Source: an uncultured Bacteroidales bacterium
GTDB lineage: Bacteria > Bacteroidota > Bacteroidia > Bacteroidales > P3
Reading direction: 5' to 3'
Length of the DNA stretch: 64,000 nt
Assembly (NCBI GenBank): GCA_905235855.1
Contig: CAJONE010000004.1
Coordinates: forward strand, 48,700 to 112,699
In this document: piece by piece, positions 8,850-38,600 of the stretch
Numbering within the stretch: the first letter of the stretch is position 1
Layout: each line of letters begins with the position of its first letter
Position numbers and translations under genes: made by a program
The notes under the pieces: model-generated
Database searches by the model: none
What the model was told of the DNA's origin: nothing
Seen by the model: only the letters and a program-made list of their open reading frames with translations

Positions 8850-9329
8850 TCAAAGTTTCAAAGGAATATCGTTGCCATCAAGACGAGCGGATACAAGGTC
8901 GTCACCCCGATAGACAAGCTTTAACGAGAAGAACGGTCTCGCATCGTCCATTATAAGCCGCAAAAATATGCGGTCGCCAGTCCATAACTGCAAATCGAAG
9001 ACTTGCTGCTTGTCAATCCATTGCAGGTCGCCCTCATTGCAGTCGGAAAGGTTGCCGATCCATTGGTCGGACGTAAAGAGATGCATATATTCGCACGGCC
9101 AAATGTCCGATATGAAAGTCACGATTCCACGGTAGCGCCAGCTGATGATTTCAAGGCCGGTCTCCTCTCGCACCTCGCGTAGCATACACTCGTCGGGACT
9201 CTCGTTTTCCTCACACTTGCCGCCCACGCCAATCCATTTGCCCTGCGAGGCATCATGAGCTTTTTTAATGCGGTGCAGCATAAGATATTGCCCGTCACGT
9301 TCGATATAGCATAGCGTTGTCTGTTTCAT
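8850..9329 (-). CDS. NUDIX hydrolase (8-oxo-dGTP diphosphatase-like)
   Basis: Nudix box GGKCEENESPDECMLREVREETGLEI. Confidence 0.9.
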   Translation of the reverse strand: MKQTTLCYIERDGQYLMLHRIKKAHDASQGKWIGVGGKCEENESPDECMLREVREETGLEIISWRYRGIVTFISDIWPCEYMHLFTSDQWIGNLSDCNEGDLQWIDKQQVFDLQLWTGDRIFLRLIMDDARPFFSLKLVYRGDDLVSARLDGNDIPLKL

Positions 9330-10774
9330 TTCAGTACGGTGAACTTGGCCGTGTGGCCGTCGATAGTGCAGAAATAGATACCTGCCGGATAGTCTGACAC
9401 ATCTATTGCAATGTCGCCTCCAATCAACTGCTCGCGCAATGTCTGCCCCGTAGCCGAGCGAATACAGACCTTTGAAGCCTGTCCGCTGGGCAGGGCGGAT
9501 ATATGGATTGTTGATGTTGCGGGATTAGGATAAATCTTGAACGGCGTATTTATACCGCTGAACGGGTAATCTATATTTTCGGGGTCACGTTCCGGGGCTG
9601 GCTGTATGCCGACAATTGCCACATGCATTGAGGTAAAACGGTAGTTGAAGACAAACAACTGGTTGTTGTAGAGGTCGAACCATCCGTCGCCTCCGCTACC
9701 CCAGCCCCAGTTGACGTGGACAAAGCCGTCGGTCTCGTCGTAACCGTCTATAACAAAGGCATGGCCGGCATCCACCCCTGTGCTGGTGTTGTCGTAGCCA
9801 CAATATAAAACGGGCCTGCCGGCACGGATTTCATTACTTATGATGTCTATCCATTCATCGTCGCCGTATTCCGCACGATACAAGTACCGTACAGTTGTGT
9901 CGTATTTGAAATGATTTACCAGTGCTCTTCGGCAAAAACTTCCTACATTCGACATCCCGACGCCGCTACTGCCCGAAGTGTATTGCATCCATACGCTGAC
10001 ACCCGCATGGTAACAAAGTGTGGCGGTGGCCTCTACCATACCGGTGGGACTGTAGAAGTATAGCATGTCGGGCATACTGTCGAAATTATAGTTAACTTCG
10101 CTAAAATCCATGGTTATACGGTCCATACATGCTCCACACATGTAAGATGTCGAACCTTGACCCTGTGCCGGATGTTTCCAATAGCGCAGTATTTGCGACA
10201 AAGCAGTGGCCACACAGCCTACCGGTGCGGTATTGCCGTCGATTACGGGGCAGTATTTGTTGTAAGGCCAACTTTGATTCCATGTGGTTGTGAGCAGGTA
10301 GTCTGGCTCGTCCTTGGCGGGTGAACCCTTATAGTCTGGCGACAATAATTCGCCCCACTGCTTAACAACCGCCTCTGATGCAGTGAGGCTATTGTTTTGC
10401 CCATAGGCTATCTCGTCGCCCCGCATCACAAGCCAACTGTCAAATGCTGGCGAATAGCCGCTGCCGTTGCACCCTGTCAGTGAGTTCTTTCGCGAATAGG
10501 CCAGAATCGGGCTTACACAATTGTCGCCAGCAACAACCACAAAACCTTGATTCTCCAATCCGTCCGCATCCATCATAGAGAAAAGGTATATGACTGGTAT
10601 GTGCAAGTTCTCGTTGTCAATGGTTCTTGCCAAAACCGGAATTCCCTTGATGTTATGGATACATGCAAAACGCATCGCCACCGTCCGGGCCTCGACACTG
10701 TCTACGATTCTCGCCCATGCAGTGCCTATCGATAGGCCTATCAGAACAAATAAAACAAAACTACGCTTTTGCAT
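9326..10774 (-). CDS. C10 family (streptopain-like) peptidase with T9SS type A sorting domain
   Basis: Signal peptide from MQKRSF; APVGCVATALSQILRYWKHP (Cys) and AGHAFVIDGYDE (His); C-terminus FKIYPNPATSTIHISAL...YPAGIYFCTIDGHTAKFTVLK. Confidence 0.9.
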   Translation of the reverse strand: MQKRSFVLFVLIGLSIGTAWARIVDSVEARTVAMRFACIHNIKGIPVLARTIDNENLHIPVIYLFSMMDADGLENQGFVVVAGDNCVSPILAYSRKNSLTGCNGSGYSPAFDSWLVMRGDEIAYGQNNSLTASEAVVKQWGELLSPDYKGSPAKDEPDYLLTTTWNQSWPYNKYCPVIDGNTAPVGCVATALSQILRYWKHPAQGQGSTSYMCGACMDRITMDFSEVNYNFDSMPDMLYFYSPTGMVEATATLCYHAGVSVWMQYTSGSSGVGMSNVGSFCRRALVNHFKYDTTVRYLYRAEYGDDEWIDIISNEIRAGRPVLYCGYDNTSTGVDAGHAFVIDGYDETDGFVHVNWGWGSGGDGWFDLYNNQLFVFNYRFTSMHVAIVGIQPAPERDPENIDYPFSGINTPFKIYPNPATSTIHISALPSGQASKVCIRSATGQTLREQLIGGDIAIDVSDYPAGIYFCTIDGHTAKFTVLK

Positions 10775-13700
10775 CTTTATGCAGTTTTTTATTGGCATAC
10801 CATATATAAACGGTTGGCACCACAAAAATATTGAGCAAAGTGGATGTAAAAAGTCCACCGAGTACAACAATTGCCATTGGAGCTTGAATTTCATTGCCAG
10901 CTTTCGATGCCGACAGTATCATGGGTATAAGCGACAACGCCGTGGTCAAGGCGGTCATTATAATGGGGTTAAGCCTGTCGAGCGACCCTTGCCGCACAAC
11001 TTTCACAACGTCCGTCAGCGAATGCAAACCATCGCACGCCAACTGCTGGTACTTGGCTATCAACAATATTCCGTTTCGGGTTGCGATGCCAAAAAGTGTT
11101 ATGAACCCTATTATGGCAGGTATGCTCATAAGGTTTGACGTAAGTTTTACGGCCACGACTCCGCCTATAAGTGCCAGTGGCAAGTTGAGAAGCACAATCA
11201 ACGAGAGTGTGAAGTTGCGAAACTCGGTGTAGAGCAACAGGTAAATGACAGCCAGGCACAGCACAAACACCAGTGCCAGAGTGCGCGAGGCGGTTTTGGC
11301 AGTCTCAAACTGACCTCCATACTCGACACGATAGCCTTCCGGCAGCGTCACCTGTTTGTCTATCGCCCTTTTTATGTCGTCGACAACACTCATAGCATCG
11401 CGTCCGCTCACGTTGGCCGATACAACTAGTTTGCGCTGCACATTCTCGCGCGAGATGCTATTCGGTCCCCCGCACGACACCACGTCGCACACCTCGGACA
11501 GCGGCACTGCCACCATGGAGGACGCTGTGCCGGAAACAATCAAGGCATCTCTCACATCGTCGATTGTAGGGCAGTCGCTTGCACTGTTGAGTTTTACCAC
11601 AAGATCGTAAGCGCGCGTTCCCTCATGGATTTCGCACAGTTTTTCGCCTCCAAAAGCAAGTTCGACAAAATGGTTGAACTCTTCAACAGTTATGCCGTAT
11701 TGGGCCAATTTGTCACGGTCGGGACGCAACTGCAATTGTGGAACCTCTGTCTGCTGTTCGACGTTGACATCAACCAATCCCTCGATATCAACTGTGGCGG
11801 CCTTTATGCGGTTGCCAAGCATATAGAGCTGGCCGAGGTCGTTGCCAAACAACTTGATGGCAATAGCTGCTTGTGTGCCGCTGACCATGTGCTCAATACG
11901 ATGACCGAGTGGCTGCCCGATACTCACCGCTATGCCCGGCACGACAGCCAAACGCTCACGCACATCTTCCATAAAAGCTTCTTTCGAACGGTGCCGCAGC
12001 TCGAAATTGACATCTATCTCGGCTCCGTTGGTGGCCTGCGAGTGCTCGTCGAGCTCGCCGCGTCCAGTACGCCGCGACGTAGAGGTGATTTCAGGAATAT
12101 CGAGCAGTTGCCGCTCAATAAGGTTGCCTATGGCGTTGCTCTCCTCAAGCGAAATGCCTGGCTTTGCAACCGCTGCTATAGTGAGCGACCCTTCGTTGAA
12201 TTCCGGCAGAAATCCCCGCCCCATTGTAAACAATAGCGCCACCGAAACCACAAGCAGGACGCCCGTGGTTGAGACCACAACGGTTTTGTGTCGCAAAGCG
12301 GTGTCAAGCATACGGCTGTAGACAGAGCTCATCCTGCGGCTGATCCAACTCTCTCGGTCGTTTCTCGAAAGATATCGGTCGGACGATAGAAGCATTTTGC
12401 ACAGCAGCGGCGTTATGGTCATTGCCACCACAAGCGACATGAATAATGCAGTAAGATAGGCCACTCCGAGCGGTTTAAGCATACGCCCCTCCAGCCCCGT
12501 TAAGAAAAACAGAGGTACAAAAGTTATCATTATGATAAACGTCGCGTGAATGATCGAACTGCGGATTTCGGACGATCCTCTGAACACAACGTCGTAAGAC
12601 GACAGACGTTCGTTTTCAGGCAGACTGTGGTTTTGCCGCAATCGCTTATAGACATTCTCCACGTCGATTATCGCATCGTCGACGAGCGACCCTATCGCAA
12701 TACACATACCACCCAATGTCATCGTGTTTATTTCAAGCCCCATGAGGTGTATGCTCAGAATCGTTGCAAGCAACGAAATCGGTATAGCCACAATAGAGAT
12801 GAGCGTTGTGCGGATACTGCCGAGAAACAGAAAAAGAACTACAACCACAAACACAGCTCCCTCAATCAGAGATCGTCCCACATTGCCCACCGACGACGAA
12901 ATGAAGTCGGCCTGCCGGAATATGTGAGTGTTCATCTTAACGTCTGGCGGAAAACTTTTCTCAATGTTGGCAAGGTTGCGTTCAATGGCCTCGGTCACCT
13001 TCAGCGTGTTGATGTTCGGCTGTTTCGATACAGACAGTATGATAGCTGGCGAAGCGTTTGCCGAGGCATAGCCCTGCTTTATGGCGTTGCCCACCCTCAC
13101 CTCGGCCACGTCGTATAGTCTTACTCCATCTTTGACGAGACTTTTGCCAAGTTCCTCCGTATCGAATGTGCGCACCATTCCACGCAGCGAGTATTCGTTG
13201 CCATAGTCGCGCACAACTCCGCCAGTGGAATTGTTTCCCAGCGACTTGCCCACCTCCTCAACCTCACCCATAGTCACTCCGTATGCAGCCATACGTGCAG
13301 GATCGGCCACTATCTGATATTGCTTGTATTCTCCGCCGATAATCGTCACCTGCGACACTCCGCCGGTTGCCAATATCGCCGGTTTTACAACCCATTCGGC
13401 CAAGGTCCGGAGATCCTGCATTGTCGTGTGTACACTATCGGACGATGAACTCTGAATACTGTCGTGCTTTTGCTGTAGACTGACAAACAGAATTTCACCC
13501 ATCACACTGCTTTGGGGAGCCATAATAGGTGTCACGTCGGGCGGCAGCTGGCCTCCGAGGGTGGTGAGTTTCTCACTCACAATCTGGCGTGCCTTGAACT
13601 GGTCCATACCCCAGTCGAACTCAACAAATACAAACGAGCTTCCCTGCATTGAAGTGGAACGCACACGACGCACGTTTGTGGCTCCATTTACAGCGGTCTC

Positions 13701-13907
13701 TATGGGGAATGTGACCATTCGCTCCACCTCCTCCGGCGCCATCCCGTGTGCATCGGTCATCACGACAACGGTCGGTGCCGTAAGGTCGGGAAACACGTCA
13801 ATGTCGGTGTTTCTCCCTGCCCAAATGCCGGCCACAATGAGCAGCACCGCCGCCAGAAGTATGAAAAGCTTGTTGTCTAAACTGAATTTTATAATTTTGT
13901 TTAACAT
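10761..13907 (-). CDS. Efflux RND transporter permease, HME type (CusA/CzcA-like)
   Basis: About 1048 aa from MLNKIIKFSLDNKLF; DIDVFPDLTAPTVVVMTDAHGMAPEEVERMVTFPIE and GSLVDDAIIDVENVYKRL motifs. Confidence 0.92.
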   Translation of the reverse strand: MLNKIIKFSLDNKLFILLAAVLLIVAGIWAGRNTDIDVFPDLTAPTVVVMTDAHGMAPEEVERMVTFPIETAVNGATNVRRVRSTSMQGSSFVFVEFDWGMDQFKARQIVSEKLTTLGGQLPPDVTPIMAPQSSVMGEILFVSLQQKHDSIQSSSSDSVHTTMQDLRTLAEWVVKPAILATGGVSQVTIIGGEYKQYQIVADPARMAAYGVTMGEVEEVGKSLGNNSTGGVVRDYGNEYSLRGMVRTFDTEELGKSLVKDGVRLYDVAEVRVGNAIKQGYASANASPAIILSVSKQPNINTLKVTEAIERNLANIEKSFPPDVKMNTHIFRQADFISSSVGNVGRSLIEGAVFVVVVLFLFLGSIRTTLISIVAIPISLLATILSIHLMGLEINTMTLGGMCIAIGSLVDDAIIDVENVYKRLRQNHSLPENERLSSYDVVFRGSSEIRSSIIHATFIIMITFVPLFFLTGLEGRMLKPLGVAYLTALFMSLVVAMTITPLLCKMLLSSDRYLSRNDRESWISRRMSSVYSRMLDTALRHKTVVVSTTGVLLVVSVALLFTMGRGFLPEFNEGSLTIAAVAKPGISLEESNAIGNLIERQLLDIPEITSTSRRTGRGELDEHSQATNGAEIDVNFELRHRSKEAFMEDVRERLAVVPGIAVSIGQPLGHRIEHMVSGTQAAIAIKLFGNDLGQLYMLGNRIKAATVDIEGLVDVNVEQQTEVPQLQLRPDRDKLAQYGITVEEFNHFVELAFGGEKLCEIHEGTRAYDLVVKLNSASDCPTIDDVRDALIVSGTASSMVAVPLSEVCDVVSCGGPNSISRENVQRKLVVSANVSGRDAMSVVDDIKRAIDKQVTLPEGYRVEYGGQFETAKTASRTLALVFVLCLAVIYLLLYTEFRNFTLSLIVLLNLPLALIGGVVAVKLTSNLMSIPAIIGFITLFGIATRNGILLIAKYQQLACDGLHSLTDVVKVVRQGSLDRLNPIIMTALTTALSLIPMILSASKAGNEIQAPMAIVVLGGLFTSTLLNIFVVPTVYIWYANKKLHKDAKA

Positions 13908-13986
13908 CCTGTCTGGTGATTGAAAATTTAAAAAAGTTGTTGTGACAAGTACACGCAACGCGCCTGAACTTTCAGGTACTCTGGCT

Positions 13987-15210
13987 TCAATGCACATGTC
14001 CGGCGTGAGGGTCAAGGGCGGCAGCTCCTTGCGCCAGCTTAACCCAATAAGCACCCTTAGTCACCACAGTTTCGCCTGGATTCAGCCCCGATGTCACAAC
14101 CGTACGTCGTCCGTCGCTTCCGCCAATGCACACAAAACGCTTCTCATAGATATCGGTTGCAACCTGTACAAAGACAAACATGTTACCCATTTCCTCGACC
14201 AAGCCACTGTTGTCTATTACGATGGCTTCTTGCATTTCCTCGGTAATAATGTATATCCTGACAAAATTCCCCGCTATCAAAGATTCTCTGTTTCTTACAC
14301 GGAAAGTGACTGGAATCAGCGCGTTGCCAGCATCTGTAGATTTGCCATAGCTCACGAAACTTCCGTTCAATTCCTCCAGCGAATAGACGCAACCATCGGG
14401 CATCTCCACATTGGCTCCTTTAATATACCTCAGACTTGTATAGTAGCGCGGCGAAAGCTCGGCGCGCAGATACAAGTCTTTGTTTTGCGAAATTGTCACC
14501 ACTGCTTGCCCTGACTCTACATAGCCGCCGTTTTGCACATTGATGTTTTTCACATATCCACTCATCGGTGCGGTGACAACAGATCCAACTGGTGAAAAAT
14601 TTCTTTTCAGGTTGTCGTAAGCGATTTTGGTCCTTTCGTAGGCGGCACGACTTTTTTCCAAATCCGCCTGCGACACGATGCCGCGCTCTGACAGGTCTCT
14701 CTTTCGTTCATATTCGGATTTTGCAACGTTATAGTCCGACTCGGCTTCCTGATATAGTACCGACATATTTCCATCGGCCAAGCCGCTGCTTTCAATGCTA
14801 AACAGGCGTTGGCCTTTTTTCACCAACGCACCCTCCACAACGTCGCTGCCAGCGAAACGCACAACTCCCGATGCCCGGCTGACAACAACTTGTTCGTCGC
14901 CCGAAGAAGATACAACCTGCGCACTGGCTTTAATCACACATCCAAACTTTTCGGATTTCACTTCGCCCACGGAAAAATCAACAGCATCTCTCTGCTCTTG
15001 GGTGAATTTCACGCAGTTGGCTGGAATATTATGATGATGTTCATGTTCATCGTGGTTATGCTCCTCATCGTGAGCGTGGCTATGGTTTGCCCCGTGCTCG
15101 TGTTCATGGTTGTGTTCATGGTCGTGGTGATGATGGCAACCTGTCGCCACACCAAGTGCCAACGAAACCATAAATACTAAAAATATTTGTCTTCTGTATT
15201 TTGTTTTCAT
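13987..15210 (-). CDS. RND periplasmic adaptor lipoprotein with His-rich N-terminus (CusB/CzcB-like)
   Basis: Lipobox VATGC followed by HHHHDHEHNHEHEHGANHSHAHDEEHNHDEHEHHH; adaptor hairpin/lipoyl fold (VVRFAGSDVVEGALVKKGQRLFSIES). Confidence 0.9.
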   Translation of the reverse strand: MKTKYRRQIFLVFMVSLALGVATGCHHHHDHEHNHEHEHGANHSHAHDEEHNHDEHEHHHNIPANCVKFTQEQRDAVDFSVGEVKSEKFGCVIKASAQVVSSSGDEQVVVSRASGVVRFAGSDVVEGALVKKGQRLFSIESSGLADGNMSVLYQEAESDYNVAKSEYERKRDLSERGIVSQADLEKSRAAYERTKIAYDNLKRNFSPVGSVVTAPMSGYVKNINVQNGGYVESGQAVVTISQNKDLYLRAELSPRYYTSLRYIKGANVEMPDGCVYSLEELNGSFVSYGKSTDAGNALIPVTFRVRNRESLIAGNFVRIYIITEEMQEAIVIDNSGLVEEMGNMFVFVQVATDIYEKRFVCIGGSDGRRTVVTSGLNPGETVVTKGAYWVKLAQGAAALDPHAGHVH

Positions 15211-22206: not shown

Positions 22207-25200
22207 TTAAAATGGATAACCTATGCTGAAATTGAGGCGCAGTCCGTCGAGGGCCGGAATATTGTAGTAGGATGTAATAGGCCGTGTGAAGTCGGGTGTG
22301 CCATTCTTGTTATACTTGAATGTTTGGTAAGGCGCGTGGATGCCCACCCCAAAATCCAGACGAACAACAAGTCCGTCGATGTCGAGACGTAATCCGGCAC
22401 CAGTACCCAAGGCTATCTGTTTCGCGATATTACGATTTTCGATGATGCCGTCCTCCAGTTCCTCGGTCAAACCCATGGTTTCCACAAAAGAGGCGTATTC
22501 ATCATCGCCAAGAAGGGATGAAGCCTTATGCCAGTTCCACACGTTGCCGGCATCGACAAAAACAGCACCATAAAGCTTCCAAACAATCGGGAAACGCAGT
22601 TCAAAATTGGCTTCGAGCTTGATGTCTCCACCATGGAAAAAACTTTGATTGTACTTGGGGCTATAGAAGTTTCCGGGTCCGTAGCCGTATGGTGCCGATG
22701 CACGCAGACTGTTCGGCCCACCCACATAGAAAGCTTCCGAAAGCGGAGCGGATGTCGAATTGCCAAGCGGTATGTTGGCTCCGGCATACAACCGCGTCGC
22801 AATGCATATTTTTTCGGTCAGATTATACTTGTTCCACAGTTCAGCAGTCACCCTCACAAACTGGTTGAATGGCACCTTGCCTATAATCGGTTTGTCCTTC
22901 TCTTCCCATCCGTGCCCCGATAGACTATAGACAGCGTTGATAAGGTTGCCTGCCTCCTTGATTTCAAAGTCAAACATCGTATTCACCCTGCGCTTGGTCC
23001 GATAGTCGTTATAGGTTGCACCATAACCGACCGAGGGGACAAACTCGCCGCCCGCAAGCACTCTGAGTAGTTCGACGCGGTCGGTTGCACTGTTAAGCAG
23101 GTCTGCCGACTCGACATTAACTTTCACCACCGAAAGCGAGAAAGGAGTAAATACATGTGTGAAATAGCGCGACTGACGGATGAAATACGAGAATCCACCT
23201 GAGAACTTATGGACTCCGTATCCGCCCGCAATGTTCTCGTATTTGTAACCCATACTGTAGCGGGTATCGCCGTCGGGGTTGTTGTCGCCAACCCAGTGCA
23301 GATATGGGAACACAAGTGCCGCATCGACACCGAACTTGTAGGTGTCTGCCGACCGCCGACCACCGACTGCTGACCGCCAATAATAGGCTCCGTGGCCCTT
23401 AACTATAAACCGTTCGCCGTGTCCCATGAGGTTTCCTATCGAATGAGTAAGAGTGAGATTGGGGCCAATACTGTTGTTCGACCGATAGACCACATCCGCG
23501 TCAGCCAAAAGGTTGTATGTCCGCTGACCATCGCCCTTTTCACGCCACTCTTTGTTAGCCCTGACGCCTATACCCGAAACACCCAGTTCGCCCTCAAGGA
23601 CATTGTCGTAGTCGCGCTTGGAGTAAATTCGTAAAAGCACGTTGCCCGATTTGGTCAATTTGTAGTCGGCCGATATCAGGCTGAGTAATCCGTTGGCCTT
23701 GTTGACCTCGGGGTTGTCAGAGATGGTTGAGCCGAGAGTGACGCGTAGTTTGTCGTTGAAAAGGGATTTGCTGATGGCAATGTTCATATCGTTGGTTTTG
23801 CCAGACGCGTGCATAGTTTGTCCGCTGCTGATATCCACATCGACCAACTTGCCCATTTTAGAGTTAGCCATAGCAGCATTGATACGGCTATTGACAATGC
23901 TTGACAGGGCATAGCCATCCCGTTGTGCTGCCACGTTACTTCCGCCCATGTACATCCCGGTGGCAAGCAATACGGCGGCTATGCCCTCGCGCGTTTCTTC
24001 ATTCATCGAAGTAAGTTCGCGTGTGACGGTCTCGTCGTTTGGAGCCTCGAGGAAAAAACCGAGGGCGCCAAGGCCTAACGAGTCTATTATGCCATTCACA
24101 CGAACTCCTGTGTTGAATACCACGCGGCGCGTCTCATCACCCTCCGACTGCACATCAGCTTTCACCTGCTGCGATGCCGACACGCTCACTTTCGCTTTAC
24201 CCAGGGGACCGTTGAAAGCGACATGACTCCCCGAATCCACATTGAATGGCATAATGGGGTAAAGCTTGGGTGAATAGCGTATCAAGCCATCGTCTACATG
24301 TACTTTTCCTGCCAAGTTCAACTCCCCGTCAGCGGTAGTATAGTGCACCTGAACCGTGCCGTGCGGTTTGACCTGAGCCAGGTTCTTCTTGTCAATTGGA
24401 TAGGTGATATCTGTTGAGGGCAATATTGTTACATCCACATCGGCAACGATACTGTCGATTGGACCCGTTGCCTGTCCGCGGATATCGGTTACCAGATTGC
24501 CATATACAGGGATTTGGCCTCCCTGCTCTAATTTCGCCGGCGAAAAATTATCTGCGGCCACAGCCACATCCAGCATCATCGTGCCCAGATTCAGTCCACC
24601 GTTCAAAGCGAGCCATGAACTGTCGGCACTATAGATGCGCACATCATTTAGTTTTACATTGTTATGTTCCATAACAATAGGCTTTTCCCCTAAATTAAGT
24701 TTTACATTGTATGGCTTGTATGTGGCACTTACGTTAATTGGCAACACTTCGGCCGAGATATCCAGTTGAGTCGGCCATCCGTCCGCTGCCCCCTTTGCCC
24801 TGACAACACCCTGCAAGTCGATGTCGCCTATTTGTAGAAGACTATTCAGCAAAGCAACGGGGATATCGTCTGACCGAACGTCAGCCCGAAGAGCGTTCTC
24901 GTACATATCCGACGGCGAAATAAAGAAGTCTGCCCTACGGTTTCCGATTCGGGTTTGGCCGTATATGAGACTGTCCAAAGTAAGGTATCCTGACCCGTTC
25001 ACCTTACGTCCAACCCTTGCCAAATCGAGTTTCAGTGTCGCATCAGTGCGGATTCCCCTCACACTCATCACACCATCGTCGACAGTGGTAGCCGCCGAGA
25101 GTGAAGCGGTTGTTCTGCCCTCTGACATAGAAAGCCTCAGCGATGCCGTAGCCGGCGGCAGGCGTAACCCAGCGCTGTCGTCAGAATGGCCGATGTGCGG

Positions 25201-27036
25201 AGTTGATATATCCAAAACCATGTCGGATTGAATGGAATCGGATTTTAACGACAGTGCCATCTCATTCAGATCCAAGCCATTCTGTTCAACAACAGCCTGA
25301 AGTGGGCTTCCACGTGTCAGCCGTATTGCCGCCTGCATACCAGGGATGGCCCGACGGAGCGTGTCAAGCATCGTAAGATCCTTCAGTGTGGTTATAGAGC
25401 CGACAAACACAGTATCCGCAACAAGCTTCATAAGCGGCTGAGATGCATCAATCAACCGAAGCAGATGCATCGGGGCTTGCACTAAAGCATCAAGCCCTTT
25501 TGTGGCCAATTGCAGCGTAGTGGCAGTGTCGGTGGCAATGTCAATATCCAAACGGTCTATATTGTAATCCTGCCCTTCCACATGAGCAAACACATTGGTC
25601 ATCTGCGTGTGGTAGTCCACACACATTCGTTTAGGTGTCAAAAATTCCGAAACGCGAAACTGATGGCTTGTCTCTGCACGGACATAAGGTTCGCCACCCG
25701 CCATTACTGCGACCGGCACGTTCATGTTTCCCGAGACGATCCTGTTTGCAAACTTTGCCTCGAGTGTCATTCCAGATAAATTAAACTGGTTATAGACCGC
25801 ACCAGCAAGATGCATTGCAATATTGCATTTCATGGTGTTCGAAGCTGGATTCAACCCCTGGCCTTGTGCATGGATAACACCAACCAGTTCGGCATTGGCG
25901 TTGTCGCCAATAAATGGTCGAGCATCAACCTGCTCAATGTCAAGCATCACATCATAAATTTCGTCGTCGATGTCATAGAATCCTTTCAGGAAAGCCAAAC
26001 TGCCGCGAAAATCGGCGTGAGCTACCACATCCACACGCATCGTTTCCAGGTTGAGCATTACAGACGACAGGTCGACCCTTGCCCCTATTGAATCTGAACG
26101 GGCGTGCAGTCCGTTTGAACTAATCAGATTGGTATTCAGGTCCACCAATGCACTGCCGCAGATTGTGTCGAACGAAAGATGAAGCGTTTCGAGTGTGAGC
26201 GATAAATCACTGGCATTCAGACCACGTGCGTCGTAGCGGTTGCCTCCCACATCAGCAAGCACATTCGTATTCAAACCGCCGACATGCACGTCTAATCCCA
26301 GCGGATTGAGTACGAAACGCACATTGCGCAATTCGGCATCCGGCACATCGAAGGCCATCAAAGATGAGGTGGTGTCTGTCGAGTCGGGAGGCGTGTCGCG
26401 CAGGCCGATACCCACATACGCATCCGACAATTTCAAACCGTGCAACGGAAAGGAACCTTGTGCGATGTTGAGCCCGGGACTCGTCACAACCATACACCGC
26501 AAAACAGCATCAATTCCTACAGACTCTATCAGACGGTCGGTGTGGACGGTGGTTTGCGCTAACATCAACTCGTCGACTATGATGGTACGCGCTAAAAAGT
26601 CGGCGGCGGGGATACCGTTTGCCGGTTTCGCAACATTGCCCCGCAAACGCAGCGACCGAACGTAAACAAGCGTGTCACGGCCGCGATGCCCGATAAAGAG
26701 GCTGTCGATTTCAATATGCAGCGGCAGGTCAGCCTCGCCCTTGTATGCGTGATAGAGAAGCCACGGCGACTGGTGGAACGGGGAAAGATAGAGTTTGCCA
26801 AGATCCACATCCATGTCGGTTCGCTTATTGATTTCGGTCACGCATTTTCGCAATACAGCCATGCGGGCTTTAGGTGTCACCAATATAACCGTCACGACAA
26901 CCGCTAACAACAGAATCAACCCCATAATAGCACCAAGAACAATGCATGGCACCTTCCAAAGTAAGCTCTTTCTGCTTTTCGACTGGTGGATAGTGGCCGG
27001 CGACTGCTGACCGATGTCCGTGCCTCTTTTCCTCAA
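22207..27036 (-). CDS. TamB/AsmA-like translocation/assembly module protein fused to a C-terminal Omp85 (TamA/TamL/BamA-type) beta-barrel
   Basis: 1609 aa: N-terminal TM anchor, long beta-repeat region and TamB C-domain-like block, then from about 23550 downward a barrel ending FYVGGPNSLRA...GDIKLEANFELRFPIVWKLYGAVFVDAGNVWNW...IALGTGAGLRLDIDGLVVRLDFGV...LRLNFSIGYPF. Confidence 0.85.
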   Translation of the reverse strand: MRKRGTDIGQQSPATIHQSKSRKSLLWKVPCIVLGAIMGLILLLAVVVTVILVTPKARMAVLRKCVTEINKRTDMDVDLGKLYLSPFHQSPWLLYHAYKGEADLPLHIEIDSLFIGHRGRDTLVYVRSLRLRGNVAKPANGIPAADFLARTIIVDELMLAQTTVHTDRLIESVGIDAVLRCMVVTSPGLNIAQGSFPLHGLKLSDAYVGIGLRDTPPDSTDTTSSLMAFDVPDAELRNVRFVLNPLGLDVHVGGLNTNVLADVGGNRYDARGLNASDLSLTLETLHLSFDTICGSALVDLNTNLISSNGLHARSDSIGARVDLSSVMLNLETMRVDVVAHADFRGSLAFLKGFYDIDDEIYDVMLDIEQVDARPFIGDNANAELVGVIHAQGQGLNPASNTMKCNIAMHLAGAVYNQFNLSGMTLEAKFANRIVSGNMNVPVAVMAGGEPYVRAETSHQFRVSEFLTPKRMCVDYHTQMTNVFAHVEGQDYNIDRLDIDIATDTATTLQLATKGLDALVQAPMHLLRLIDASQPLMKLVADTVFVGSITTLKDLTMLDTLRRAIPGMQAAIRLTRGSPLQAVVEQNGLDLNEMALSLKSDSIQSDMVLDISTPHIGHSDDSAGLRLPPATASLRLSMSEGRTTASLSAATTVDDGVMSVRGIRTDATLKLDLARVGRKVNGSGYLTLDSLIYGQTRIGNRRADFFISPSDMYENALRADVRSDDIPVALLNSLLQIGDIDLQGVVRAKGAADGWPTQLDISAEVLPINVSATYKPYNVKLNLGEKPIVMEHNNVKLNDVRIYSADSSWLALNGGLNLGTMMLDVAVAADNFSPAKLEQGGQIPVYGNLVTDIRGQATGPIDSIVADVDVTILPSTDITYPIDKKNLAQVKPHGTVQVHYTTADGELNLAGKVHVDDGLIRYSPKLYPIMPFNVDSGSHVAFNGPLGKAKVSVSASQQVKADVQSEGDETRRVVFNTGVRVNGIIDSLGLGALGFFLEAPNDETVTRELTSMNEETREGIAAVLLATGMYMGGSNVAAQRDGYALSSIVNSRINAAMANSKMGKLVDVDISSGQTMHASGKTNDMNIAISKSLFNDKLRVTLGSTISDNPEVNKANGLLSLISADYKLTKSGNVLLRIYSKRDYDNVLEGELGVSGIGVRANKEWREKGDGQRTYNLLADADVVYRSNNSIGPNLTLTHSIGNLMGHGERFIVKGHGAYYWRSAVGGRRSADTYKFGVDAALVFPYLHWVGDNNPDGDTRYSMGYKYENIAGGYGVHKFSGGFSYFIRQSRYFTHVFTPFSLSVVKVNVESADLLNSATDRVELLRVLAGGEFVPSVGYGATYNDYRTKRRVNTMFDFEIKEAGNLINAVYSLSGHGWEEKDKPIIGKVPFNQFVRVTAELWNKYNLTEKICIATRLYAGANIPLGNSTSAPLSEAFYVGGPNSLRASAPYGYGPGNFYSPKYNQSFFHGGDIKLEANFELRFPIVWKLYGAVFVDAGNVWNWHKASSLLGDDEYASFVETMGLTEELEDGIIENRNIAKQIALGTGAGLRLDIDGLVVRLDFGVGIHAPYQTFKYNKNGTPDFTRPITSYYNIPALDGLRLNFSIGYPF

Positions 27037-27080: not shown

Positions 27081-28424
27081 TCAAAAACCAAACCCACCCA
27101 ATGCAGTGTAGAGGTTTATGAGAGCCTGAATGGCCTCATATCGGTTTTCAACCTGTCCGAGTTGTGCCGAAAGTAAGGACTCCTGTGCAGTTAGAACCTC
27201 CAGATACGTGTTTGTGCCGTTCATCATAAGTTCCGACGTGGCATCGTAGGCATTCTGAAGCGAATTGACACGGCTATCGATAAATTCGGCCTTCTTCATG
27301 GCGGTTTGACACTCATGGAGATACCTATACACTTCAGAGCCTGCGTCCAAAAGGGTCTGCTCAAATTCCAGTCGCGCCTTCTCTTGGTCGGCTTTTGCAT
27401 TTTTCAGTTGCTCTCTCAACCTTCCGCCTGCGAAAAGAGGCTGCACGAGCGAGGCCACAGCCTGCCCAATCAAATCAATCGGACTGGCGGCCACGCCGAA
27501 AAGCCCATCGATGGTCAGCGTTGGGTAAAAAGCCTGACGGGCCTGCTGAACACCATAATACGCAATTTCCATATTCCGTTCGGCCATTCGCACATCGGGA
27601 CGTGCGTCGAGTAGACTCACAGGCAAGCCCAAACGGAATTCTTCCGGCATTTGGAACGTACCGAAAGGTGCACGCTCTACATGGTGCGGCGGCTCGGCAA
27701 TCAAGTTACAGAGAATAGCCTCCTCGGTGAGTATGCTGTTGCGCAAATCGAGGATATCAGACTTCACCTGCGACAGTGAGGCCTCCATCTGGTAGACAGC
27801 CGGACTCTGAACAATGCCTGCTTCATACAGTGCGCGAGTCAATTCGAGCGACTCTTCCCACAGCCTTTCTGTCTGCTCGGCCACCTCCAACTGTCGGTCC
27901 AACATCACCAAAGTGTAATAGAGGCCAGCCACAGTCGCCGAAAGGCTTACCTGCACAGCCTGCTTGTAGTCTTGTGCATAGGCAACCTGCGATTTTGCTT
28001 TCCTGATTTGAGCGGTGGTCTGTCCGAAAATTCCTAACTGCCAACTGGCGGTGACAGGTATCTGTGCGGCAAAAGTACCAGTACCTTTGTATGTATAAGA
28101 GGCCTGCGGCGTAAAATAAAATGTAGGTGCATAGCCCAATTTGGCGGCTTTAACGCTGTTTTGCGCCTGCTCGACAGTTAGCTTGGCCACACGCATATCG
28201 GTGTTGTTGGCCACAGCCGTCTCCACCAGTCGCTGCAGCAGTGGGTCGGGGAAAAGTGTGCGCCAATTCACCGCCCCCATCGAAACAGTATCCTGCGTGT
28301 TCCCCACATCGCCCATCACATCAGCTCTGACAGTGTCGTCGGACGAATACTTACGATAGATGTTGCAACTGGAAAACATCAGTAAGAACGCCAAAGTCAC
28401 CGTATATGTATATCTGATTTTCAT
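27081..28424 (-). CDS. Efflux outer-membrane factor (TolC/OprM-like lipoprotein)
   Basis: 447 aa, lipobox FSSC, WRTLFPDPLLQRLVETAVANNTDMRVAKLTVEQAQ, LLDARPDVRMAERNMEIAYYGVQQARQAFYPTLTIDG. Confidence 0.92.
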   Translation of the reverse strand: MKIRYTYTVTLAFLLMFSSCNIYRKYSSDDTVRADVMGDVGNTQDTVSMGAVNWRTLFPDPLLQRLVETAVANNTDMRVAKLTVEQAQNSVKAAKLGYAPTFYFTPQASYTYKGTGTFAAQIPVTASWQLGIFGQTTAQIRKAKSQVAYAQDYKQAVQVSLSATVAGLYYTLVMLDRQLEVAEQTERLWEESLELTRALYEAGIVQSPAVYQMEASLSQVKSDILDLRNSILTEEAILCNLIAEPPHHVERAPFGTFQMPEEFRLGLPVSLLDARPDVRMAERNMEIAYYGVQQARQAFYPTLTIDGLFGVAASPIDLIGQAVASLVQPLFAGGRLREQLKNAKADQEKARLEFEQTLLDAGSEVYRYLHECQTAMKKAEFIDSRVNSLQNAYDATSELMMNGTNTYLEVLTAQESLLSAQLGQVENRYEAIQALINLYTALGGFGF

Positions 28425-28491
28425 GATTCCTTGTTTAATGTGTCGAATTTTGCAATGATTTCCTACTTTCAGACATCTAATTCACATCCTC

Positions 28492-31400
28492 CTATTCTTC
28501 ACCGACTTCACCGGGGGTCAGCTTTTCATGCAGCTTCTGGAAGAATATGTAGAAAGCCGGCGTAACAAAAAGAATGGCTATGATGCCGACGATCATGCCG
28601 CCCACAACCGTCAAAGCCAGCGACTTGTTGCCAACCGCACCAGCGCCGCCGGCGACAATCAGCGGTATCATTCCGATTACCATAGTGGCGACTGTCATCA
28701 AGATAGGACGCAAGCGATCCTTGCATGCTCCGACGGCAGCATCGAAAATAGGCATGCCCTCTTTACGTTTCTGGATAGCAAACTCGGTGATGAGGATTGC
28801 TGTTTTGGCCACCAGACCCATCAGCATAATAACACCTGTCTGCACGTATATATTGGCTCCGACACCCATCAGCGTTTGTAGCGGACGGATAGTCAGATAG
28901 GCCCCAAACAGTCCGAACGGGATAGAGAAAAGAACCGCAAACGGGATGAAAAGCGAGTTGTAGAGACAGGCGAGAATGAGGTAGATAATCAGAATGGCGA
29001 TACCATAGATTAGTATAGTTTCGTTCGAACCCGCGCTGGCGGCCTCCTCACGAGCCATACCACCGTACTCGTAGCCGTAGTCGGACGGGAAAACCTCGCC
29101 CATCACCTCGTCTACAACAGTACGAACGTGAGCCGACGTGTAGCCAGGAGCGGGCATAAGAACCATGTTGTAGCAGGGGAAAAGGTTGAACCGGCGTTCC
29201 TGCGACGACCCCAGCCCCTCTTTCAACGAAACAAACTCCGAGACCGGTGCCATTCCACCTGCAGTGGGGACAAAAATCTGATTGAGCGCACTTTCGTCCA
29301 TACGGTATTCCTTATCGGCCTGCATGAGCACTTGATACACCTTGCCATATTGAATGTAGTTGCCAATATAGCTGCCTGCGATATTGGTGCCGATGGTGGC
29401 GAGAACCGCCTTTGGAGAAACTCCCTTACGCTTGCATGCGGCCGCATCGATTTCGAGACGGAACTTGGGGTAATCCTGAGAATAGGAAGGGACGGCAGCC
29501 GCAATTTCGGGGCGGGCCTGCATTTTGTCAGTAAACTCGGTACACATGTCCACGAAAATTTGATGGTCACCCGTACCGGAACGGTCCTGCAGATTCAACT
29601 CCATCATCGACCCTGTGCCATAACCGGGTATCTGGGGCATCTGGAAAGGAGTGACACTCGCCTCGGGCATATTCTGCATTGCCCACATGTATATATCTCC
29701 CTGAAGTCCGGCTATGCTGTAGAACGAGCGTTCTTTCCAGTTATTCAACCGAACCATCAAGGTGCCGTAGTTCGTGCCGGCACCGCCGTTCATCATCGAG
29801 TAGCCAGTGATGCCACCCACTAATTCGGCTTCGTCGATAGTGCGCACATAATCCTCCAGTTTCTTGACTGCTGCCTCCGTCTCGTTGAGATATGTGCCGG
29901 ACGCCATTGTCACATCAACGATAAGGAAGCCTTGGTCCTCCTGCGGCACAAGGTCTTTCTGCGCACTCGTCATCAACCATGCCATACCTCCAGTGAAAAT
30001 GACCAACAGTATCCATGCGAAAGCTGGTTTCTTCATGAACTTGGTTACGTCGCCCATATATTTTTTTTCCACGGCGCTATATGCCGCGTTGTATCCCAGC
30101 CGAACATAGTGGCTCAAACTTTTCCTTTCCGCTTCGCCATCTTTTTTCGGTTTGAAGAGCAGGGCACACAGAGCGGGACAGATAGTCAGTGCGCATATTG
30201 CCGACAGTGCAACCGAAGCAGCCATAATGACACCGAACTGCTTGAAGAAAGTGCCCGACGTGCCCGACATGAATGTCACAGGAATAAACACCGCCATAAA
30301 AACCAAAGCAGTTGATATACAGGCGGCTGTGACCTCGCCCAAAGCATCGTTCACAGCTCTCTTCGTGTTTTTGTACCCCGCCTCCAGTTTAGCCATAACG
30401 GCTTCGACTACCACTATAGCGTCGTCCACCACCGTTCCGATAGCCAATACCAAAGCAAAAAGCGTCAGCAGGTTGAGCGAAAAACCCACCGCTTTGGCAA
30501 TGGCAAACGTACCCACAAGCGAAACGATGATAGAAACCGACGGCACTATGGTGGCCTTGAAGTCCTGAAGGAAAAGATAAACAATCAGAATCACCAGTAT
30601 GATGGCGATTATAAGTGTCTCAACCACATTGTGCATCGAGGCGTTCAGAAAGTCGTCGGAGGTCTCCAATTGCTTGAACTCCAAACCCGCTGGCAGACTT
30701 TTCGAGAGATTTTCGATTGTTTTGTTTATTTCGGCGTTCACCTTGGTGGCGTTGGCTCCGGGTGCTTGGTTGATTATGAACAACACACCCGGATGCCCAT
30801 CCACATCCGTGCGAAAATCGTATGACTTGGTACCCAGCTCCACTTTTGCCACATCGCACAACCGCAGCACATTCCCGTCGGGTGTGGCACGCACAACGAT
30901 GTTCTCGAACTCGTTCATATCGTCGAGCAGCCCGTTGTACTCGATATCAATCTTGTTGATGCTGCTTTCAAAACTGCCCACTGGCGAAACAAGGTTCTGT
31001 TCGCTCAAAGAGGCTGCAATCTCTTCGGGTGTGACACCGTACATGCCCATTACATCGGGCTTTAGCCATATTCGCACACCGTATTTGTCGCCCAACAGAG
31101 TGGTTCGGCCTACGCCAGTTACACGGCTGATGGCAGGCAGTACATTGATGTCAAGATAGTTTGAAATAAATTTTTGGTCAAATCTGTCGTCAGTGCTTTC
31201 CAGGCTCAGAATCTGCAAAATGGAGTTCACGCTCTTTGCCACAGTGACACCTTGGGTGGTCACCTCGGCGGGCAGAAGGCCCAAAGCACTGTTCACGCGG
31301 TTCTGCACATTGGTGGTTGCCTGGTCGGCATCAGTACCTTGTTTGAAATAGACAGAGATCTCGGCACTGCCGTTCGCATTGGCGGTGGAACTCATGTAGA

Positions 31401-31647
31401 GCATGTCTTCAACACCGTTTACCTGTTCTTCGATGGGCATGATGACCGACTTCATCACCGCGTTGGCATCGGCTCCGCCGTAGTATGCCGAGATGGTGAC
31501 CATGGGTGGAGCTATGTTGGGATACTGTTCTATTGGAAGGGTGAAAATGCTCAGCAGTCCTACCACAAGAAGAATCACACCGAGAGCGAATGCCGCCACC
31601 CAGTGTTTCACGAAAAACTTGGTTTTCTTCACTTTCTCTTCCATCAT
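28492..31647 (-). CDS. Efflux RND permease, HAE1 type (AcrB/MexB-like)
   Basis: 1051 aa; TLPIEQYPNIAPPMVTISAYYGGADANAV, VLAIGTVVDDAIVVVEAVMAKLE, MGLVAKTAILITEFA. Confidence 0.95.
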   Translation of the reverse strand: MMEEKVKKTKFFVKHWVAAFALGVILLVVGLLSIFTLPIEQYPNIAPPMVTISAYYGGADANAVMKSVIMPIEEQVNGVEDMLYMSSTANANGSAEISVYFKQGTDADQATTNVQNRVNSALGLLPAEVTTQGVTVAKSVNSILQILSLESTDDRFDQKFISNYLDINVLPAISRVTGVGRTTLLGDKYGVRIWLKPDVMGMYGVTPEEIAASLSEQNLVSPVGSFESSINKIDIEYNGLLDDMNEFENIVVRATPDGNVLRLCDVAKVELGTKSYDFRTDVDGHPGVLFIINQAPGANATKVNAEINKTIENLSKSLPAGLEFKQLETSDDFLNASMHNVVETLIIAIILVILIVYLFLQDFKATIVPSVSIIVSLVGTFAIAKAVGFSLNLLTLFALVLAIGTVVDDAIVVVEAVMAKLEAGYKNTKRAVNDALGEVTAACISTALVFMAVFIPVTFMSGTSGTFFKQFGVIMAASVALSAICALTICPALCALLFKPKKDGEAERKSLSHYVRLGYNAAYSAVEKKYMGDVTKFMKKPAFAWILLVIFTGGMAWLMTSAQKDLVPQEDQGFLIVDVTMASGTYLNETEAAVKKLEDYVRTIDEAELVGGITGYSMMNGGAGTNYGTLMVRLNNWKERSFYSIAGLQGDIYMWAMQNMPEASVTPFQMPQIPGYGTGSMMELNLQDRSGTGDHQIFVDMCTEFTDKMQARPEIAAAVPSYSQDYPKFRLEIDAAACKRKGVSPKAVLATIGTNIAGSYIGNYIQYGKVYQVLMQADKEYRMDESALNQIFVPTAGGMAPVSEFVSLKEGLGSSQERRFNLFPCYNMVLMPAPGYTSAHVRTVVDEVMGEVFPSDYGYEYGGMAREEAASAGSNETILIYGIAILIIYLILACLYNSLFIPFAVLFSIPFGLFGAYLTIRPLQTLMGVGANIYVQTGVIMLMGLVAKTAILITEFAIQKRKEGMPIFDAAVGACKDRLRPILMTVATMVIGMIPLIVAGGAGAVGNKSLALTVVGGMIVGIIAILFVTPAFYIFFQKLHEKLTPGEVGEE

Positions 31648-32777
31648 TACCTTATTTTCATGCCGTTAGAAAGTTTTCGCACTCCGTTAGTCACTATTTC
31701 GTCGCCAGGTTGAAGACCATCTATGATATAGTATTCCCTGCCGTCATTGGATGGGAATACATTACAGAGAACACCCTCGACGGTGCCGTCGGATTTGACA
31801 CGATAGAACATCATTTGGTCCTGAAGACGGACGGCGGCAGTCTGCGGCACGCAAAGCACACTGTCGGACGAGAGCGGAATAACCACACTGGCAGTCAATC
31901 CCGAACGCAGAATACCGTCAGGATTGGGGAACGAGCCGGTGCAGGTAACGGTACCGGTGCTTTGCTGCACGATAGCGTCCATCTTTGAGACCTTGCCTTC
32001 GTGCTCAAATACAGATCCGTCCTTGAGTTGAAGTTTCAATGTGGGTAAGGCATCGCCGACCAGTTTTCCGTCACTGCCCTGCATTCCCTTGTCCGTAACC
32101 TTGAGACTGTACTCTTTGGTGATTTCCAAAAGCTGGCTCTCGGAGATGGAAAACCTTGCGTCAACCACGTCGTTGTCGCTCACTTGGCAGAGCCAGTTGC
32201 CCGGGGTGGCGAGGTCGCCCACGTCGAAACCATTGTCGGCAATATATCCGTCAATGGGCGATGTGACCGTGCAATAGGCGAGGTTGGTTCTGGCTATGTT
32301 AAGCTGCGCTTCGGCCTGCAAGACGGCGGCTTTGGCTGCATTGTAGGCGTTGAGGCTGGTCTTGAGCACATAATCGCTGATTACCTTCTTGGAGTGTAGC
32401 CCCTGGTTTGACTCGTACTGCAGTTTTGTGGTCTCCATATGCGCTTTAGCGGCACTGAGGTTGGCCTCAGCCGACTGTACGCCGAGGCGGTATTCGGTAG
32501 GGTCGATGACAAAAAGGGTCTGCCCCTTGCGCACGCGCACGCCATTGGTGTAATTCTTGGCTCTGACGATGCCTTGCACTTGTGGATAAATTTTCACTTC
32601 GGAGGTGCCCTCGAGTGTCGCAGGGAACGTCATATTATAGACACGGGACTCGTGTTGCAGCATTTTTGTTTCAAATTTGGTTTGCGGCATTTCATCGCCA
32701 CCTCCCATATTTCCGCATGACTGGAGCAGTAAGATGGCAAGGGCGGCCAATGACAGAATTAGATTTTTTTTACTCAT
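31647..32777 (-). CDS. Efflux RND periplasmic adaptor (AcrA/MexA-like lipoprotein)
   Basis: 376 aa, lipobox LLLQSC, RVYNMTFPATLEGTSEVKIYPQVQGIV, VRKGQTLFVIDPTEY. Confidence 0.93.
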   Translation of the reverse strand: MSKKNLILSLAALAILLLQSCGNMGGGDEMPQTKFETKMLQHESRVYNMTFPATLEGTSEVKIYPQVQGIVRAKNYTNGVRVRKGQTLFVIDPTEYRLGVQSAEANLSAAKAHMETTKLQYESNQGLHSKKVISDYVLKTSLNAYNAAKAAVLQAEAQLNIARTNLAYCTVTSPIDGYIADNGFDVGDLATPGNWLCQVSDNDVVDARFSISESQLLEITKEYSLKVTDKGMQGSDGKLVGDALPTLKLQLKDGSVFEHEGKVSKMDAIVQQSTGTVTCTGSFPNPDGILRSGLTASVVIPLSSDSVLCVPQTAAVRLQDQMMFYRVKSDGTVEGVLCNVFPSNDGREYYIIDGLQPGDEIVTNGVRKLSNGMKIR

Positions 32778-35671: not shown

Positions 35672-38600
35672 TCAGAATGAGAACCTTATGGTTAAGCCAC
35701 CCTTGGTGGTTGAGTTGGGGTAAGCGTTTGAGATAAAGGGGGTGTTGATGTTGGTCTGGAAGAAGAGGCGGAGGGTCAAGGTAGTAGAGAGGGCATACTC
35801 GGCCGAAAGCTCGGCCATCCAGACTTTACTGCCCGACGAAATCTGGCTTACGTTCTGGTTAATTTTTCGTATTTCGGTTTTGTTGCTATTGTATGTGAGG
35901 TTAAACTGAAGAACTATGTCGCTCTTGATGTCCTTGCGCAGACGCCCCATCTTAATGTGAAGCTCAACATCCTTAATACGGTAGCCGGCTCCGAGGGTGA
36001 TACCGTTGCGCGAGGTCTCGGTCAGCTGGTTGTTGGCAAAGCTGAGGGCGAGTGTGCGGTTGCGCTGCATTGAGAAATTAACCTGAAAACTGTTGACCAT
36101 ATTCAAGGCCACTTTGATGAGGGGGTTGAACTGCTCGGTAATCTGTATGCCTTCCATGCTTAGTGGTGAAACGTAGTCGCCGGTGGGGTTAAGCACCGTC
36201 TCGGAGCCATAGTCGTAGCCCGCAAGCCCTGAAATGGCAGCATCGGTATAGAAATTGCCAACGGTGTAGGTGGACATGTACTTGTGGGAGATGGTGATAT
36301 TCGAAAACCACTTCTTGAGGAACTCAATTTTTCCGAGACCAGAATAGGTGATGCTCCAGTTTGGGAGCGGCATTTTGAGGAAGGGTGAAAACCCGTGTTT
36401 CGAAACGTCTTTGCCCATATATGTGGCAAGGAAACTTGTGAGCAGCACGGTCTGCTGGTTCGGACTGTAGCCCGCTGGGAACCTCTCACCGGTAACTGAA
36501 TCAAGGACGTAGCCCGAGGCATACGGATCAGGGTTGGCGGCAGCAAGCCTTTCGGCAACAATACGCCGGTTCTGAAGGAACTCGTTATACAGCTGGTCGG
36601 GCTTGCGAAATGCTGTGGCAATGGCCCATGCGGTGGTGGTGTAGCTGCCGCTGAACATGGGAGAAAGCGGGCCTTTGACAACATCCTCGACTGTATTGTA
36701 TTTGTAGTAGTATTCCTCGCGGCGCGAATAGTTCTCGGTGGCGGTGATGTCGATTTTCATGTGTCGAATGGGTTCGAGCGACGCCTGAAGAGAGAATATG
36801 CGATTGCCCGTTATCCAATGCGGCTGGTTGAGAAGACTGTCGGAACTGAGGAGGTCGTTTTTCAGCAGTTCCTCGGCCACATTCTCGGTCTTTCCCAAAA
36901 CGAACAGACCCGGAGCGCCAAAATTGCGCGGGTCAACACCCACAATGGTGGCCGTGCCCATAAAGCCTGGGATATGTCCACCTCCCGATTGGCTGTACTG
37001 CACATTGAGCGAACGCAAACCGGTTACGAAACGAAGCCCGAAATAGCCCACCTGCCTCCACCGCTCGGCCACTTCGGCCTTGTGGAGAGAGTCGGCCAAC
37101 GCTTTCGACACAGAGTCGTTTTGATCCATTCCGCGCTTCTTGTCGAGCTTGTTTTTTTCAGCATCTTTGTCTTTGCCCTTCTTGTTGCCGTTTTTCTTTG
37201 GTTGGGGGGGAGCCTGAGCCTTCTTGATCAACTTGAACTTGTTGTAGAGAGTCTGCATATTGGCCGAGGCGGTGGCGGTAAAAGTGGAAGCGTTTTCGAT
37301 CACGCTGCCCATCGACTTGAGAGCCTCGGTGGTGCCCTGGTAGCTGTAGTTGGTCCGATAGGTCAACGGCAGGCGCAGAAAGTCGAGATAGGGCAGTTTG
37401 CCGATAGGGATATCATAGCTCACCTGAAGTGTGTGCTGGTAGTTCTGCATCGTTCCGCCATGCAGCATGGAACGCCATATTGAGTCGGATGCCGACCGAG
37501 TCTCGATACGGCCAATCGGCTCGTCGATACGGGCGTTGGCATTGGCGTCATACTGCAGTTTGAGGTTGGTGGATATATCGTACTGGAATCCATAGTCGCG
37601 CCGCCATGTGAACTGCTTGAAATAGGTGGGTTTCATGATAATCAGAGCCTCGCTCTTGTTACGCAGCACGGTTTCCTCGAAGTCGCGGTAGATTTCGGTC
37701 GAGAAGGAAAGGTTCTTGGGCTGGTAGATAAGGTTGAATTCCTTGAATATCTTGAAGTTCTTGTTGTTGAACGCCTTTACCTTGGCAAAGGGACGGAACT
37801 GCTTCGGCTGCTGGATGGAATAGTTGTAGCTGAAGCCGCCGCGATGCTGGTTTTTCTTGTAGTGTTCGATGTCGTCGTCCGAGCTGCGTTCTCCGCTGTA
37901 GGCATAGCTGAAACTGAAGTTCTCGAAATCATAGAAATGGGGTTTCAGTGCAGCTTTGCCCACACGCTCCTTGCGGATGTTGGTAAGTGTCAGATTAGTG
38001 GTCTGCTTGCGCTGCTGCGTAATCCGCCTTATAGAGTCGCGTTCGGCTTGAGACTGGTAGGTTTTTATGTCTTTTTTGAGGAGCACATCCTCGTCGAGCG
38101 GATTGTATTCAGGGCTTCCTATTTCCTTGGCCCAGTCAACGTAAAGCGGTATGTGCATACCCCATTTTTCGGGCAGCATGCGTCCGATCTCGAAATCGAA
38201 GGTAGCCTGAAAATTTAGCCGGTTGACGAGTTCGGGGTCGGTTAGTTTGTCCTCCAGATTGCCGAAGCCCGACGAGGTGTAGGCGCCATAAAGCGAAAGG
38301 TTGCCAACGTCGGCCAGATTTGTGCGAGCCAGTGCCATGGCCGACCAGCCTCCCTTGTTGTTGTAGTCGCTAAGTCTCAACTCGTTAATCCAGACTATAG
38401 CACTACGCGACACCATCTCGGCCTCGGTGCCCCCCTTGGGATTGCGAACACCAATCATAATAACCCTCACTTTGCCAAGATTTGGACGCCCCAAAACCGA
38501 ATATTTCTTTCCATCGATATATTCGCTGTAGAGCATAGTCGAACTGTAGAGATCCTCGCCACTGCGAATGCTGCGGTTACGGTTGGTCTTAATGTCGGTG

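Follow-up and report, generated by a model that had tools for sequence, protein, structure and literature searches.

In the cryo-EM structures of TamAB from E. coli reported in 2026, strand β1 of TamA pairs with the last strand of TamB to form a hybrid barrel, and lipid is bound in the TamB cavity; E. coli TamA requires its POTRA2 domain (PMC12800296). How TamB passes its cargo to the outer membrane is an open question, as is whether the hybrid barrel represents a working or a transient state. Flavobacterium johnsoniae possesses a further operon, tamB2-tamL2 (Fjoh_1899-Fjoh_1900), which is non-essential and whose function is unknown (PMC12045153). Here we describe a gene of an uncultured Bacteroidales bacterium in which TamB2 and TamL2, normally two proteins, are joined in a single polypeptide, a real, conserved and apparently undescribed variant of TAM. 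No description of a TamB-Omp85 fusion was found in the open-access literature we searched, which included articles on the evolution of TAM, on TamL and on the diversity of Omp85 (the search did not extend to subscription papers or preprints); in this literature the fusion is not a documented norm of the clade, though a number of rumen Bacteroidales have conserved it.

The gene lies in a stretch of 64,000 nucleotides, hereafter the window (Table 1). A reading made from sequence alone had proposed one uninterrupted 1609-aa frame that joins a TamB-like region, with an N-terminal transmembrane anchor, to an Omp85 barrel. The frame held: it runs on the minus strand from 27036 to 22207 without internal stops, although translation may truly begin some 20 codons after the TTG, as homologues align only from residue ~18–25. 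The claim that the gene follows an AcrAB-TolC-like operon on the same strand held as well; the gap to the preceding TolC-like gene was measured as 44 bp, and the AcrB-like and AcrA-like genes lie upstream of the latter. Elsewhere in the window we observed a heavy-metal RND efflux operon and the type IX secretion translocon SprA, after which comes a RuvA-like gene (assigned by eye only).

Table 1. Features of the window, with positions counted from its first nucleotide.
Feature	Position	Strand	Evidence or remark
TamB2-TamL2 single-chain fusion gene	22207..27036	minus	1609 aa, TTG start
N-terminal membrane helix, predicted inner-membrane signal anchor (residues ~30-55)	26872..26949	minus	hydropathy, AlphaFold helix
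TamB-type beta-groove (residues ~56-999)	24040..26871	minus	AlphaFold strands, hhalign to TamB2
TamB C-terminal block (residues ~1000-1165), last TamB strand EGELGVSGIGVRANKEW at its end	23542..24039	minus	hhalign, model strand
Junction turn (residues ~1166-1172), length differs among homologues	23521..23541	minus	model and alignment
TamL2-type Omp85 barrel (residues ~1173-1609), C-terminal NFSIGYPF	22210..23520	minus	NF052279, hhalign, model
AcrA-AcrB-TolC-like RND efflux operon, directly upstream of the fusion	27081..32777	minus	probably co-acquired or independently acquired horizontally
TolC-like gene	27081..28424	minus	
AcrB-like gene	28492..31647	minus	
AcrA-like gene	31647..32777	minus	
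Heavy-metal RND efflux operon	9326-15210		CusA/CzcA type (TIGR00914) with periplasmic adaptor
SprA, type IX secretion translocon	35672-42820		TIGR04189, 2384 bits

The Pfam TamB model PF04357 gave no match to the fusion protein, although it matched the TamB1 and TamB2 controls. Because this model was not reached, the identity of the TamB half rests on profile-profile comparison and on the tree: in hhalign, residues 795–1165 match TamB2 proteins at 99.9% (E=4.9e-33) and residues 18–857 at 99.6%. On this basis, and not by way of PF04357, the TamB assignment of the sequence-only reading is supported. Two features expected of TamB, an N-terminal signal anchor and a long β-taco groove (AsmA-like), are both present as model predictions: the protein contains a strongly hydrophobic segment (residues 24–62, hydropathy up to 3.03), and the AlphaFold model of residues 18–857 (pLDDT 84) shows a helix at model residues 5–36 followed almost entirely by long strands. 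The proposed transmembrane anchor thus held as a prediction. A Foldseek search with the groove model retrieved LptD and apoB, with chains of TamAB, including its TamB (9xdc_B, E=5e-3), among the weak matches.

The C-terminus matches the Omp85 family PF01103 above the cut-off (2.6e-17), and residues 1172–1609 align with positions 334–747 (of 747) of NF052279, the NCBIfam model for TamL of Bacteroidota, with 311 bits; the curated cut-off of this model (400 bits, full length) is not reached. The hhalign match of the barrel region to TamL2 is at 100% (E=4.8e-71), and the TamB2 and TamL2 profile matches meet at residue ~1165. The barrel, which is among the most conserved regions of the fusion, retains the Omp85 landmarks GGPNSLRA and GAVFVDAGNVW and many invariant columns. 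The C-terminal profile found no match among the sequences of solved structures, and a Foldseek search with the C-terminal model identified BamA, TamA and LptD (prob 1.00 for BamA/TamA). This AlphaFold model (residues 795–1609) is of medium confidence (pLDDT 65, pTM 0.47); it places the last TamB strand at model residues 357–371 and, after a 7-residue gap, the first barrel strand at 379–391, followed by ~15 further strands according to our own count. A 16-strand Omp85 barrel with its signature is therefore predicted, the strand count being only as good as the model.

Of the earlier proposal that POTRA domains are absent, with the TamB groove in their place, the absence held. A profile of TamL N-termini gave E-values of 0.5 or worse in each fusion tested (L043, L066 and L089 were left out of this test), as against 1e-73 to 1e-101 in the TamL controls, and Pfam POTRA models, which detect the domain in TamL1 and TamL2, found none in the window fusion. 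The possibility that a POTRA is concealed between the TamB and barrel regions was ruled out by the same profile with its positive controls. The lipoprotein cysteine, invariant in six out of six TamL2 proteins, is gone in the fusion, where TamB sequence precedes the barrel. The linker at the junction varies in length across homologues, and both its flanks are conserved (0.77–0.82 identity).

Phylogenetic analysis revealed that the parents of the fusion were TamB2 and TamL2, not the canonical TamB and TamL, and that the fusion event happened once. In the barrel tree the fusions form one clade (100/100) within TamL2 (100/99; 100/100 with G145, G057 and G059), apart from TamL1, and in the TamB tree they also form one clade (100/100), nested with TamB2 (100/81 and 100/100) and apart from TamB1. 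The clade is set on a long stem branch. We assigned the names TamB2 and TamL2 from the operon linkage seen in the genomes retrieved, and the trees do not include the sequences of F. johnsoniae. In other Bacteroidales families the unfused tamB2 and tamL2 are neighbours on the same strand, as has been described for F. johnsoniae, and often overlap or nearly do so (L091–L095); adjacent or overlapping pairs were seen in G057, G059, G051, G038 and G047. The bin G145, which is perhaps mixed, contains an unfused TamB2-TamL2 pair (L148, on contig G145:C53) besides a fusion.

Among 85,462 species genomes scanned we identified 54 fusion loci, of which 46 encode the complete fusion in one frame (~1520–1704 aa), six are truncated by contig ends and two (L067 and L087) are split in frame. 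The 46 complete homologues share the same architecture, come from independent assemblies and show 53–71% identity; a misassembly, raised as a concern by the sequence-only reading, is excluded by these dozens of single-frame copies. According to their record titles, the homologues derive mainly from metagenome-assembled genomes of Bacteroidales and Paludibacteraceae that live in the rumen or elsewhere in the gut of ruminants. A sample of 393 genomes contained five carriers, and high-quality carriers, among them G264, G449, G381 and G408, occur in four Bacteroidales families. The architecture is confined and patchy, since no other barrel match in a frame >913 aa was detected in a sample of 396 genomes from the phylum. 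All parts of the fusion are under purifying selection, with dN/dS of ~0.05–0.33 in the groove, the TamB C-terminal block and the barrel for most measurable pairs, and lower values for the closest pair. One genome (G154) encodes two different TamB-TamL fusions, of 1612 and 1537 aa (L049 and L129).

A separate TamL is encoded in 43 of the 46 carrier genomes, and of the 34 carriers searched for canonical TamB nearly all possess it, which argues that the fusion is an extra or accessory system. As to a separate tamL or bamA in the window genome, BamA was found, and BamA and the fusion are the only Omp85 proteins we could detect; a separate TamL was not found in this draft assembly. The start of a canonical TamB sits at the end of contig C95, which means that this genome cannot be said to lack the canonical pair. 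Loss of canonical TAM from this genome is thus unsupported; the failure to find TamL may reflect a gap in the draft, and it is likely that the draft assembly hides the rest of the canonical TAM.

The fusion is present in only two of 120 genomes of the genus, and it is likely that the window genome acquired it horizontally, as it did the AcrAB-TolC operon (in the same event or independently), between the native genes RadA and SprA. RadA, 2.5 kb from the fusion, shares 74–89% identity with the complete copies of genus mates versus 62% with the rumen genome G144, and SprA on the opposite side is 66–90% identical to genus mates versus 44% to G144. For the genes of the block, identity to G144 is 89% (AcrB), 82.5% (TolC), 83% (AcrA) and 71% (fusion, L037); the window AcrB is 74% identical to that of G173 and was not found in nine genus mates (E≤1e-200). 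G014 and G009 have a colinear SprA neighbourhood from which the efflux-fusion block is missing. The block may be composite, because G144 carries the operon and the fusion on separate contigs. In one lineage pair TamB1 and TamL1 are only 22% and 26% identical, whereas the fusions of the same genome pairs are 60–71% identical, which makes simple vertical inheritance of the fusion unlikely. The other copy in the genus (G034) groups with the L043 lineage and not with that of the window, and may indicate two gains within the genus, but contamination of its 4.4-kb contig is not excluded. Only ~9 of the 54 loci have an RND operon close to the fusion, with AcrB there only ~54% identical, and the operon was rejected as an obligate partner. 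The initial reading is thereby refined with respect to the parents of the fusion, its usual coexistence with canonical TamL and TamB, and the apparently horizontal arrival of both the fusion and the neighbouring efflux operon.

Other genes were observed in the vicinity of the fusion. At five loci (L050, L060, L069, L071 and L083; ORFs of 1504–1533 aa) there are apparent AcrB-TolC fusions, in which an AcrB-type frame continues into TolC-like lipoprotein sequence (e.g. SCGVFNKYQP); these are separate genes in the window. A conserved gene for a ~280-aa protein is located upstream of the fusion at 19 loci (e.g. L083, L050 and L066), directly adjoining it in most, and is absent at the window; its product begins with a signal peptide-like sequence and weakly matches OMP barrels. 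A ~450-aa protein that by eye resembles a monovalent cation/proton antiporter is encoded near the fusion at 14 loci, including L047, L048, L060, L061 and L070.

Based on these results we propose, with a probability of roughly 0.6, that the fusion is a single-chain TamB2-TamL2 TAM that acts as a lipid bridge from the inner to the outer membrane. The data establish the structure of the gene, its conservation and ancestry, the loss of the POTRAs, purifying selection and coexistence with canonical TAM, but topology, strand pairing in the hairpin, lack of cleavage, and transport of lipid or OMPs are all inferred, and there is no experiment on any member; hence the covalent link between the membranes and the transport role suggested earlier are still inference. 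In the proposed scenario, an overlapping tamB2-tamL2 operon would have fused once, with loss of the TamB2 C-terminal tail and of the TamL2 lipoprotein signal and POTRAs. The N-terminal helix would serve as the inner-membrane anchor and the β-taco groove would cross the periplasm. The last TamB strand would turn directly into β1 of the outer-membrane barrel, an Omp85 barrel of 16 strands, both the C-terminal end of TamB and the start of β1 being on the periplasmic face, as inferred from the reported TamAB contacts. The reversible contact between TamB and barrel would thereby become a covalent hairpin, and POTRA docking would no longer be required for recruitment of TamB. This hairpin was read from strand order alone, in the C-terminal model described above, whose coordinates were not inspected. 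The likeliest job of such a protein would be that of a stand-alone bridge moving phospholipid (or another envelope lipid) from the inner to the outer membrane, supplementing the canonical pair; lipid is the likelier cargo, given that the fusion has lost the POTRAs, which handle substrates, and that the β1 edge by which substrates are recognised would be taken up. According to a bolder reading, for which we consider the odds slightly less than even, the fusion has locked TAM in the hybrid-barrel state, with β1 permanently paired to the last TamB strand, as a POTRA-free lipid bridge that spreads horizontally among gut and rumen Bacteroidales.

Several points speak against the bridge model. A chain anchored in the inner membrane must still reach BAM, and cutting of the fusion into two proteins is not excluded. 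The function of the fusion may have drifted, as PF04357 is unmatched and the stem branch is long, and a POTRA-less barrel may work differently, given that TamA of E. coli needs POTRA2.

The alternative that survives best, and which remains possible, is a single-chain factor for OMP assembly or secretion, whose barrel would insert or export specific surface proteins through its lateral gate, while the groove would act as a chaperone attached to it and lipid transport would be of minor importance. It is supported by the Omp85 landmarks kept in the barrel, by the insertion of some autotransporters by TamA (PMC11014939, PMC12800296) and by the OMP-like gene frequently found upstream (19 loci). On the other hand, all POTRAs, normally the substrate handlers, are lost, the site of β-signal recognition would be blocked if the last TamB strand occupies β1, and no substrate gene consistently adjoins the fusion, the OMP-like gene being absent at the window. 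It is unlikely that the fusion is a polyprotein, translated as one chain whose TamB2-like and barrel parts are separated by cleavage in the periplasm and then work as an ordinary two-part TAM. The junction linker does vary in length and cleavage would be invisible from sequence, but the freed barrel would lack a lipid anchor or POTRAs for re-binding TamB, the junction flanks are conserved, and the gap between strands in the window protein is only ~7 residues. Even less credible is a structural tether, i.e. a degenerate barrel with an inactive gate that merely anchors the groove at the outer membrane: loss of the POTRAs and dispensability of unfused TamB2/TamL2 in F. johnsoniae (PMC12045153) would agree with it, but the conservation and low dN/dS of the barrel exceed the needs of an inert anchor. 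Finally, an assembly chimera, bin contamination or pseudogene, to which the draft status of the window genome (133 contigs), the rarity of the gene in the genus and the short contig of the G034 copy might point, is all but excluded by the complete homologues, the high-quality carriers, the genus-typical RadA and SprA on both sides on the same contig, and purifying selection; for the gene family as a whole it is refuted.

Our preferred reading, the single-chain lipid bridge, can be compared with four known systems. The TamB2-TamL2 operon (PMC12045153) has the same order of parts, both halves of the fusion nest within its clades, and its overlapping genes offer an obvious route to fusion; it encodes, however, two proteins, with TamL2 a lipoprotein bearing POTRAs, whereas the fusion is one chain without lipid anchor or POTRA. 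The fusion may provide a handle on this pair of unknown function. TamAB of Proteobacteria (PDB 9xdc/9xdd; PMC12800296) shares with the fusion an anchored β-taco groove and C-terminal TamB strands beside β1 of the barrel, but is non-covalent, alternates between hybrid and non-hybrid states and contains three POTRAs, of which POTRA2 cannot be deleted without lethality in the reported assay. A conserved covalent version without POTRAs argues that the contact between β1 and TamB is the productive one, and supplies a system of a single gene in which to ask whether TAM transports lipid, inserts proteins or does both. The WD40-, patatin- and noNterm-Omp85 proteins (PMC4104836) resemble the fusion in that their Omp85 barrels follow a non-POTRA N-terminus or none at all; the sections of this survey that we searched contain no N-terminus of the TamB type. 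The elongated MlaD of Veillonella parvula (PMC10665443) is likewise a single polypeptide proposed to bridge both membranes for phospholipid traffic, but it is built from an MCE domain, a helical stalk and an unrelated C-terminal outer-membrane barrel, and this barrel form is reported to be absent from Bacteroidetes (PMC10665443). After long MlaD, the TamB2-TamL2 fusion may be the second case of a single polypeptide that bridges both membranes of a diderm cell.
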